From Alphaproteobacteria bacterium (lineage in GTDB: Bacteria; Pseudomonadota; Alphaproteobacteria; Micropepsales; Micropepsaceae), in assembly GCA_947475445.1 (NCBI GenBank), contig CANJLC010000001.1, positions 62,001 to 126,000 of the forward strand: a DNA stretch of 64,000 nt, in the 5' to 3' direction. The position numbers and the translations under genes were made by a program. Shown piece by piece: positions 14,069 to 25,156 of the stretch (within the stretch, counting starts at the first letter, position 1; each line of letters starts with the position of its first letter). The notes below the pieces were generated by a model, which saw only the letters and a list, made by a program, of their open reading frames with translations, made no database searches and was not told where the DNA came from.

Positions 14069-15955
14069 TCACTGCTGGCCGAGGGCGGATTGCAGCATCT
14101 GCTGGTTGACCTTCACGCCTTCGCGCAAGCGCGCGGCATTGGTGAAGGAAACAACAATGTCGCTGGCCGCCTGCTGGGAAAGCTGCGCCCGTCCACCGTC
14201 ATAAACGATGCCGGTCGCGGGCGGGTGGGCGATGCCGGTGACGCGGGCGATGATGTGGTTTGCGCCCACGCCCTGTGCCGCTTCCACCACGCCGCCGGGG
14301 GCGGCCGTGAAGATTTTCTGCACCAGCGCGGTCGAGAAGGTCGTGTCGCTGGTGCCGCGCGTGAGCCCGGGGCTCTGCTGCACGGGCACCTTCAATTCCT
14401 TTGCCACCTGCGCCAGGCTGCTCTGGCTGTTCGCCCGTGCCGCCAGTTCAAAGGCCTTCTTCGACAATGCAGTTTGCCGCTGTTCGTCCGTCCAGGCGGT
14501 CACCGCCTCGGCGCGCACCTGGTCCAGGCTTTTCAGCTTGGGCGGCGTCACGCCATTGACCTTGAGGACGTAATTTTCGCCGCTCTTGGCGGCAAAGGGA
14601 TCGCCGCTTTCGCCGCTTTCGGTGGCGAAAGCCTGGGCCAGGAATTCCGGGTCGGGGGGCAGGTCGGCGGGCTTGGTGCCATCCGGCGCCAGGCCGTTCT
14701 TGTCGATCGCCGCCAGCTTGGCGGTTTTCATGCCGGCTTTCTTGGCGGCGGCCGTCAGTTCCTCGCCGCCGCTGCTGGCGTCTTCATAGGCGTTGATGAT
14801 GTCGGTGAGCTTGCCGGCGGCCACCTGCAGCGAAAGCGCCGCGCGGATCTGCTCGCGCACGTCATCGAGCGAGCGCGAAACGCCCGGAGTGATTGCCGTC
14901 ACGCGCAGCAGCACATAGCCGCCCAGCGCCGTCTTGACGGGCTGGCTGACCTGGTTGAGCGGCAGCGAAAAAGCGGCCTCGCCGCGAACCGGATCGGCAA
15001 GGTCGGCCTTGCTGAGCACGCCCAGCGAAAGATCGGCGGGCTTGATCTTCTTTTCCGCCGCCAGCGCGTCAAATGTCTTTCCGCTTTCTATCTGGGCGCG
15101 CGCCGCCTTGGCGTCGGCCTCCTTGGCGAACTCGATCTGCTGCACATCGCGCTTCTCCGCGACTTCATAGAGGGATTTGTGCGCGGCATAATCCTGGGCG
15201 ATCATCGCCTCGGTGACGCTGGCCTGTTCCGCGACATCCTGCGGCCCGATCCGGGCGAATTCGATTTCGCGATATTCCGGCGTGGAGAAGCGGTCGGGAT
15301 GCGCCTTCACATAGGCGGCAAGCTGGGCTTCGCTGGGCGGCGGAACCGCACCCGCTGCTTCCGGCGAGACGATGACATATTCAGCGGCGCGCCGTTCGGA
15401 GACATAGGCATAAATCGCCTGGACGTAACTCTGGGGCAGGGCAAAACCGCTTCCCAGCTGGCTGGCGAGCTGGTCGCGGGTCATGTTGGCGCGCATCTCG
15501 GCCAGGAATGTATTTTCGGTATAGCCGACGCTCTGGATGAGCTGCAGGAAACTGTTCTTCTCGAATTTTCCGGTGGGCCCGCGGAAGGCGGGCTCGTTGC
15601 GGATGCCTTCGGCCAGCGTTGCGTCGTCGGTGATCAGCCCCAGCCGCCGCGCCGAATTGTCCAGCGCGGTACGGCTGATCAGCTGCTGCAGGGCGACATT
15701 GCCCAGTCCCATTTGCTGCGCCAGTTCCGGCGTGATCTCCATGCCCATCTGCTGGCCCTGGTTGCGCACGAAGGTCTTGTAGAAGCGCTGGAAGGCATCG
15801 CTGCTGATTTCCGTCGAGCCGACAGTTGCCAGCGCCGTGGACCTCATGCCGGTAAACACGTCGGCAATGCCCCAGACGACAAAGCTGAGTGCCAGCACAC
15901 CCATCAGCAGGGAGGCGACCCAGGATGTCGAAATACGGTGCAACCATTGCATCAT
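14069..15955 (-). CDS. ppiD: PpiD-type membrane-anchored periplasmic chaperone / peptidyl-prolyl isomerase
   Basis: A 628-residue SurA/PpiD-like protein. One N-terminal TM helix (SLLMGVLALSFVVWGIADVF, residues 14-33) anchors a large periplasmic region: a SurA_N-like helical domain (VGSTEISSDAFQRFYKTF...), a parvulin-like segment around residues 240-350 and a C-terminal helical part. PpiD helps newly exported proteins fold as they leave SecYEG. The parvulin domain looks degenerate, so isomerase activity is doubtful. Divergent from tpiA across 132 bp, a common alphaproteobacterial arrangement. Confidence 0.88.
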   Translation of the reverse strand: MMQWLHRISTSWVASLLMGVLALSFVVWGIADVFTGMRSTALATVGSTEISSDAFQRFYKTFVRNQGQQMGMEITPELAQQMGLGNVALQQLISRTALDNSARRLGLITDDATLAEGIRNEPAFRGPTGKFEKNSFLQLIQSVGYTENTFLAEMRANMTRDQLASQLGSGFALPQSYVQAIYAYVSERRAAEYVIVSPEAAGAVPPPSEAQLAAYVKAHPDRFSTPEYREIEFARIGPQDVAEQASVTEAMIAQDYAAHKSLYEVAEKRDVQQIEFAKEADAKAARAQIESGKTFDALAAEKKIKPADLSLGVLSKADLADPVRGEAAFSLPLNQVSQPVKTALGGYVLLRVTAITPGVSRSLDDVREQIRAALSLQVAAGKLTDIINAYEDASSGGEELTAAAKKAGMKTAKLAAIDKNGLAPDGTKPADLPPDPEFLAQAFATESGESGDPFAAKSGENYVLKVNGVTPPKLKSLDQVRAEAVTAWTDEQRQTALSKKAFELAARANSQSSLAQVAKELKVPVQQSPGLTRGTSDTTFSTALVQKIFTAAPGGVVEAAQGVGANHIIARVTGIAHPPATGIVYDGGRAQLSQQAASDIVVSFTNAARLREGVKVNQQMLQSALGQQ

Positions 15956-16087
15956 GGCGGGGATACTCGTTGGGTAGCGTTGAAAGGCGGCGGATGATAG
16001 GGAGGGGGGCCTGTCAGGGCAAGCCGCGATTCCGGGCAGGAATCAGGGTTTTTCGAGGGTCTGAGCGGTTCAAAAGGGGCGGAGACG

Positions 16088-16828
16088 ATGCGCCAGTTGG
16101 TGGCTGGAAACTGGAAGATGAACGGGCTTGCGGCCAGCCTGTCCGAATTGAACGCCCTGAAGGCCGGTCTGGGCAGCGCGCCCTGCGATGTCCTGGTCTG
16201 CCCGCCTGCCACCCTGATTGCCCAGGCCGCCTGGGCCGTGAAAGGCGCTTTCGCGCTGGGCGGACAGGATTGCAGCACACAAGTCTCCGGCGCCTTCACG
16301 GGTGATATCAGCGCGCAGATGCTCAAGGACGCCGGTGCCAGCGCCGTGATTGTGGGCCATTCCGAACGCCGCCAGGGTCATGGCGAAAGCGACGCGCTGG
16401 TTGCGGCAAAGGCCAGCGCCGCCTGGGAAGCGGGCCTCACCGCCATCATTTGTGTGGGCGAAACAGAAAGCCAGCGCGACGCCGGCAAGGCCGAAGCCAT
16501 CTGCCAGGGCCAGATCGCGGGCAGCGTGCCCAAATCCGCCTGCGCCGCCAACACCGCCATCGCCTATGAGCCGGTCTGGGCCATCGGCACGGGCAAGACT
16601 CCCACCTCTGCCGAGATCGCGGCGATGCATGCCCATATCCGAAAATGCCTGGTCGCGGCGCTGGGGGAAGAAGGCAGGGGCATGCGCATCCTGTATGGCG
16701 GCTCGGTCAAACCTTCCAATGCCGCGGAAATTTTAAACCTTCCGGAAATAGGTGGCGCCCTGGTCGGCGGCGCCAGCCTCAAAGCCTCTGATTTTCTGGC
16801 CATAATTGCCGGTGTTAAGCCGCTTTAA
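16088..16828 (+). CDS. tpiA: Triosephosphate isomerase
   Basis: A 246-residue cytosolic glycolytic enzyme interconverting dihydroxyacetone phosphate and glyceraldehyde 3-phosphate. Landmarks: GNWKMNG with the catalytic Lys, VGHSERR with the catalytic His, [11 protein letters not shown] with the catalytic Glu, followed by loop 6, and YGGSVKPSN phosphate binding. Full length. It is followed 71 bp later by a response-regulator-like gene and then secG; tpiA-secG-pyrG is a conserved order in alphaproteobacteria. Confidence 0.96.
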
Positions 16829-23463: not shown

Positions 23464-24759
<1,296 letters not shown>

Positions 24760-24781: not shown

Positions 24782-24847
24782 GAATCCTTAACTGAATCCC
24801 GCTTGACGGGCCGAATCACTTTGTGATTCGTTGGGGGAATGCGAATC
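24782..24847. promoter_or_regulatory. Cluster of five GANTC (CcrM-type) sites at the ftsB start
   Basis: GAATC at 24782, 24794, 24813 and 24843 and GATTC at 24825, spaced 12, 19, 12 and 18 bp. In this GC-rich DNA one GANTC is expected about every 300 bp, so five in 66 bp is a strong excess. The third and fourth lie in the arms of a perfect 8-bp stem-loop, CGAATCAC-TTT-GTGATTCG (24812-24830), just before the ribosome site GGGGG. TTGACG (24803-24808) could be a -35. GANTC methylation by CcrM controls division genes in Caulobacter; its role here is inference. Confidence 0.5.
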
Positions 24848-25156
24848 AGGCGTTCCGTCTCCCGTTTTTTCACGGCTTTGATCCTTCCGGCCATCTCCCT
24901 CGCGGTGATTTCCTATTTCGGCGCCTATGCCATCTGGGGCGATCGCGGCTTGCTGCAGCTTGAGGATGTTCAGGCCAAGCTGGGCCTCAAGCAGGAGCAG
25001 TTGGCCCAGGCCCATGCGGAGCAGGACCGTCTGGCCCAGCGAATCCAGCTGATGGAAGCTGGCCACGCGGATCCCGATCTGGTGGAAGAACTGGCGCGGG
25101 GCCAGTTGATGGACGGCGCTCCCAACCAGGTTTCTGTGCCGCGCAGCGCGCGCTAA
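24839..25156 (+). CDS. ftsB: FtsB/DivIC-family septum formation initiator
   Basis: A 105-residue bitopic division protein: a short basic cytoplasmic start (MRIRRSVSRFF), one TM helix (TALILPAISLAVISYFGAYAIWG) and a periplasmic coiled coil (LEDVQAKLGLKQEQLAQAHAEQDRLAQRIQLM), ending in the DPDLVEELARGQL region typical of DivIC/FtsB. It would join FtsL and FtsQ to activate septal peptidoglycan synthesis. It lies between eno and pdhA as in most alphaproteobacteria. Confidence 0.9.
   Translation: MRIRRSVSRFFTALILPAISLAVISYFGAYAIWGDRGLLQLEDVQAKLGLKQEQLAQAHAEQDRLAQRIQLMEAGHADPDLVEELARGQLMDGAPNQVSVPRSAR

Follow-up and report, generated by a model that had tools for sequence, protein, structure and literature searches.

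A cluster of GANTC sites between eno and ftsB

The window, that is, the whole 64,000-nt stretch of DNA that was analysed, carries an ftsB gene downstream of an open reading frame whose product, judged from its own sequence, we take to be enolase. FtsB acts with FtsL and FtsQ. The features of the locus are listed below, with promoter positions counted from the A of the ftsB ATG as +1.

23476..24759, + strand: eno, open reading frame, upstream neighbour lying outside the module
24782..24786, + strand: GANTC site 1, accessory and lineage-specific, at this place in 22/60 genus loci
24788..24792, + strand: TTAAC box, 15 nt upstream of the -35, with exact spacing in 37/58 genus loci
24794..24798, + strand: GANTC site 2, accessory and lineage-specific, at this place in 16/60 genus loci
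24803..24808, + strand: predicted -35 TTGACG, first base at -36; TTGAC is nearly invariant in the genus and recurrent over the class
24813..24817, + strand: GANTC site 3 (GAATC), left of the pair, in the -35/-10 spacer at -26..-22; GANTC is kept over the class while its N varies
24824..24832, + strand: predicted extended -10 TGATTCGTT, TG at -15/-14 and hexamer TTCGTT at -12..-7, in the register preferred here
24825..24829, + strand: GANTC site 4 (GATTC), at -14..-10, overlapping the predicted extended -10; T precedes GATTC in 43/44 class loci
24839..25156, + strand: ftsB, DivIC/FtsB-type septum formation protein, open reading frame of 105 aa (Pfam DivIC PF04977, 37.9 bits, cut-off 28.9)
24843..24847, + strand: GANTC site 5 (GAATC), ftsB codons 2-3; codon 2 is CGA in 54/56 loci

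Recounting reproduced exactly the five GAATC/GATTC sites of the original prediction, at 24782, 24794, 24813, 24825 and 24843, with spacings of 12, 19, 12 and 18. Their placement at the start of ftsB is right for site 5, the only one inside the gene, but sites 1-4 fall in the eno-ftsB gap. The rate of about one site per 300 bp that had been assumed matches the expectation from composition alone, 219 GANTC in 64 kb, but the window holds only 90, about one per 711 bp, so the cluster is more unusual than had been stated. When 90 sites were placed at random 20,000 times, only 2 of the placements put five of them within 66 bp, and no palindrome of this form other than GANTC, among those found fewer than 400 times in the window, occurred more than three times in 66 bp. 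Over positions 1-64000, GANTC is depleted about 2.4-fold relative to composition.

Sites 3 and 4 lie in a perfect inverted repeat, CGAATCAC-TTT-GTGATTCG (24812-24830), with an 8-bp stem and a 3-nt loop, confirming at the DNA level the hairpin that had been described for the middle pair. Together with the -35 and site 5, they make up a three-site module, TTGAC(-35)-N5-GAATC-N7-GATTC-N9-ATGCGAATC. The TTAAC box further upstream resembles a CtrA half-site or an upstream promoter element; between 24700 and 24900 we found TTAAC boxes only, with no full CtrA site (TTAA-N7-TTAA) and no LexA (SOS) operator (GTTC-N7-GTTC) overlapping GANTC.

The module is conserved with ftsB in the genus

We searched 96 genomes of the order for FtsB and examined the region upstream of the gene at more than 80 loci. 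Within the genus of the window, an upstream TTG[A/C]C-N3..7-GANTC-N5..9-GATTC occurs at 58 of 60 ftsB loci, with arms GAATC and GATTC in most of them. The geometry is narrowly confined: the inner spacing of the pair is 7 (47 loci) or 6 (11), the distance from the -35 to the right site is 22 (45 loci) or 21 (13), and the right site stands 9 (42 loci), 10 (14) or 8 (2) nt from the start codon. FtsB identities among the genus loci run from 79% down to 42%, and the promoter pair persists at 42-60% identity. Where FtsB identity was at least 48%, the module was present in 33/33 loci with eno within 600 nt and in 23/25 loci without it; since it stays where eno is not adjacent, the module belongs to ftsB rather than to eno. 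Conservation of the sites in close relatives, on which the original prediction depended, was thus found for the pair, although it does not extend to the whole cluster: the sites at 24813, 24825 and 24843 are conserved and fixed in position, while those at 24782 and 24794 are lineage-specific extras.

In genus g5 of the same family (L067, L069 and L070), zero GANTC sites were found upstream of ftsB, which we read as a natural loss of the module within the family; one g5 member (G012) encodes both GcrA and CcrM. Two genomes of the window's genus have two ftsB-like genes each, G039 (L012 and L044), in which both copies carry the GANTC module, and G025 (L016 and L045), in which the second copy is without the left-hand site.

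Site 5 lies in coding sequence, and its retention could simply reflect the protein. Codon use ruled out this candidate explanation. Codon 3 is ATC in 53 of the 56 loci, and the CGA that occupies codon 2 in all but two of them accounts elsewhere in ftsB for just 39/584 Arg codons (7%), while a well-conserved Arg at codon 9 is encoded by four codons in roughly equal use. Furthermore, the exceptions re-form the site, one base later in L051 and L054 and just upstream of the ATG in L038. The codon bias and the rebuilt sites together indicate that site 5 is selected as DNA. In the class, a third GANTC within 30 nt downstream was seen in 9/42 loci, at varying positions.

The -35 and right-hand site recur across Alphaproteobacteria

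A DivIC-family gene turned up in 265 of 289 genomes sampled widely across the class, and the region upstream of ftsB was examined in 88 of 89 genomes selected from about 80 families. Of these, 31 have the strict pair, and 11 have only the right-hand site, with TTGAC at the expected distance. One of the 11 single matches (L198) was spurious, lying in eno coding sequence, and was removed from the counts. By our own count of the family labels of module genomes, a -35 plus GATTC at the -10 position occurs upstream of ftsB in about 36 of the roughly 80 sampled families. Among 44 class loci with this -35/right-site spacing, GATTC was found in 43, a T before it in 43 and a T as third base after it in 40, giving the consensus TTGAC-N16/17-GATTCnnT with T before the G. 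At the left site, the GANTC motif is constant but takes different middle bases (A 22, C 7, T 2, G 2).

Presence of the module follows that of the methylase. Among 79 genomes scanned, CcrM was found in 34/35 with the module versus 24/44 without it (p = 1.7e-5, uncorrected for kinship), while the link to Pfam-detected GcrA was weaker (28/36 versus 24/43, p = 0.057). Roughly half of the class genomes sampled lack the strict module. Of these, 24 have CcrM, and near variants occur in some of the CcrM-bearing ones. On this distribution, control of ftsB by a GcrA/CcrM timer is probably both old and widespread.

The source genome (2.17 Mb, 29 contigs, 98% complete) encodes one full-length GcrA (163 bits), which aligns with Caulobacter GcrA (PDB 7ye1) over the DNA-binding and sigma-binding domains, and one RAMA-domain methylase, of which 350 residues align with Caulobacter CcrMI (PDB 6pbd) at 568 bits. 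By these alignments, both are clear orthologues of the Caulobacter proteins; a GANTC methyltransferase, without which the original prediction would have no basis, is thus encoded.

A predicted leaderless promoter with GANTC in the spacer and the -10

In the predicted promoter, TTGAC starts at -36, site 3 occupies the spacer and site 4 the -10 region. The preferred register is an extended -10 with TG at -15/-14, T at -12, T at -7 and no A at -11, which accommodates the conserved T residues before and after site 4; in an alternative register, GATTCn, the methylated A would itself stand at -11. In Caulobacter, 93% of RpoD motifs begin 34-37 nt before the transcription start (PMC4287350), a range that includes the 36 nt between the first base of TTGAC and the ftsB ATG. 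Across the class, 34/42 loci have their first in-frame start codon 35-39 nt past the initial T of TTGAC. Since the start codon stands where transcription would be expected to begin, the ftsB mRNA is probably leaderless, as is common for Caulobacter mRNAs (PMC4117421).

Several explanations other than methylation-dependent activation were weighed. The repeat between eno and ftsB, with its 8-bp stem and 3-nt loop, has the outline of an eno terminator or of an RNA regulatory element in the ftsB leader. However, no T-run follows the stem, RNA folding of the region was no more structured than that of shuffles (z = -0.17), the repeat accompanies ftsB where eno is not in the neighbourhood, and in many class members the left arm is GACTC, which does not allow full pairing. 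Given the ordinary folding and a position upstream of the predicted transcription start, the inverted repeat is not evidence for an RNA hairpin, and such a role is very improbable. Equally hard to believe for the cluster as a whole is a functionless chance grouping or short tandem duplication, which is refuted for sites 3-5 by the random placements and by the retention of these sites in strongly diverged relatives. For sites 1 and 2, which are not widely conserved and are surrounded by short partial repeats, it is a possible origin.

A perfect inverted repeat, with GAATC/GATTC arms in most genus loci, could also serve an ordinary dimeric transcription factor as its operator, with GANTC incidental. 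Against this, the N of the left site varies in the class, so that the repeat is lost while the methylation motif stays intact, a third GANTC is held in the gene by codon choice, and the presence of the module tracks CcrM; we consider an operator quite unlikely. TTGAC with a -10-like element at this spacing would in turn suffice as an ordinary sigma-70 promoter, in which GANTC is merely tolerated, methylation has slight or no effect and GcrA plays no role, and mutation of GANTC did leave two tested GcrA-bound Caulobacter reporters unchanged (PMC3667746). Such a promoter would, however, be odd without assistance, as GATTC is held in 43 of 44 loci and places T rather than A at -11 in the preferred register, and GANTC is retained here despite its depletion in the window. 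We therefore regard an unassisted sigma-70 promoter as unlikely.

Proposed GcrA/CcrM-dependent timing of ftsB

Caulobacter-type bacteria use GANTC methylation to time their cell cycle. GcrA contacts both sigma region 2 and methylated DNA and accelerates formation of the open complex (PMC7403470). GcrA-activated Caulobacter promoters carry YGAKTCG (PMC7987155), a motif that sites 3, 4 and 5 fit on one strand (TGATTCG) but that neither site 1 nor site 2 matches. Caulobacter transcription starts with GANTC between -10 and -35 show activation at 40-60 min (PMC4287350). In Sphingopyxis granuli under anoxia, ftsB drops together with ctrA, ccrM, ftsN and ftsW while other fts genes do not (PMC6472365), a co-decrease that lends supporting but indirect evidence to GcrA/CcrM timing of ftsB. 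Taken together, the module layout, the GcrA mechanism, the YGAKTCG fit and the Caulobacter timing make a GcrA/CcrM-dependent core promoter that would time ftsB the best reading, to which we assign a probability of roughly 0.78. The original claim of methylation-dependent cell-cycle control of ftsB is likewise supported by the GcrA and CcrM genes and the conserved sites, with the control itself read from sequence.

In the mechanism that we propose, RNA polymerase with the housekeeping sigma factor would bind TTGAC and a weak extended -10 (TGATTCnnT, with no A at -11), and CcrM would methylate GANTC at -26 to -22 in the spacer and at -14 to -10 in the -10 region. GcrA, seated on sigma region 2, would read the methylated sites and promote the open complex, as at known GcrA promoters. 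Replication of the locus would leave the sites hemimethylated while the GcrA level cycles, and ftsB transcription could thereby be coupled to DNA replication. The transcript would begin at the A of the ATG or no more than a few bases from it and so have no leader or almost none, and site 5, kept as DNA, would probably extend methylation or GcrA contact across the transcription start. Evidence against the timer reading comes from genus g5 without the module, from the CcrM-bearing genomes without the strict module, from the weaker GcrA link and from the absence of ftsB among the essential genes tabulated in the main text as changed in a Caulobacter ccrM mutant (PMC3973325).

The C. crescentus mipZ promoter, activated by GcrA and CcrM, offers the closest comparison among the promoters considered in that both are division-gene promoters with two close GANTC sites and with GANTC between -35 and -10, that the sites are of the YGAKTCG type and that GcrA and CcrM are present. 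The two differ in the gene, in the fixed inverted geometry of the ftsB pair over the spacer and the -10, in the predicted transcription start at the ATG and in the recurrence of the ftsB layout outside Caulobacterales. Moreover, the dependence of mipZ on GcrA and CcrM has been demonstrated in Caulobacter (PMC3667746), while that of ftsB is suggested by sequence. The C. crescentus ftsZ and ftsN promoters also belong to division genes, contain GANTC and are lowered in a ccrM mutant (PMC3973325). Their predicted GcrA control differs between genera (PMC7987155), in contrast to the ftsB layout, which recurs over many families. The same published comparison describes the control of division and replication genes by GcrA as a well-conserved trait of Caulobacterales whose conservation does not extend beyond the order.

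The notable feature of the ftsB module is its breadth across the class. If the reading is true, a GANTC-paired ftsB promoter recurring in about 36 of the families sampled would amount to a common target that ties DNA replication to late septum assembly, and its fixed geometry makes the role of a methylated site at the -10 element directly testable. We give even odds to the further proposal that ftsB is an ancestral core GcrA/CcrM target in Alphaproteobacteria, retained through the rewiring of much of the regulon, and that its promoter is a stereotyped leaderless one with an inverted GANTC pair over the spacer and the -10, in which methylation beside the point where melting starts would be part of the switch. 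Among the main texts of one open library of papers, none brought ftsB, Caulobacter and GANTC together, and a published target table may already list ftsB.

Strict matches fall mostly at ftsB and recur at ccrM

In the 96 genomes of the order, the strict pattern gave 87 matches, 64 of them at ftsB, versus 3 for a reversed control pattern. In 56 class genomes, many of them picked for carrying the module, there were 44 matches, 29 at ftsB, and none for the control, and in the window's own genome the sole strict match is that at ftsB. Two of the other matches, L267 and L268 in genus g6, lie upstream of ccrM, and three further g6 matches resemble these two in their string. Two class matches (G100:C277 and G355:C1) also lie just upstream of the CcrM gene. 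The strict pattern is nearly ftsB-specific, and beyond ftsB we saw it recur at ccrM alone.

The ccrM promoter of the window's genome (L002, - strand, upstream of 2583; G000 contig C10, ~65390-65530) holds eight GANTC in 140 nt, including TTGACGGGT-GAGTC-GCACC-GAATC-ACTGT-GAATC. The open reading frame adjoining ccrM is presumably ribonuclease HII-like, as named from its sequence. The ccrM promoters resemble that of ftsB in carrying the ftsB strict pattern in g6 (L267 and L268) and TTGAC-GAGTC-GAATC-GAATC, inside a dense group of GANTC sites, in the window's genome; they serve another gene, and in the window's genome the number and spacing of the sites differ. The cluster suggests that CcrM may feed back on its own gene, and ccrM is predicted to be GcrA-controlled in many orders (PMC7987155).

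Elsewhere in the window, a second GANTC-N7-GANTC pair, GATTCCGGGCAGGAATC, lies without TTGAC at 16028-16044, in the gap between divergent open reading frames at 14069-15955 (-) and 16088-16828 (+), the latter of which resembles tpiA.
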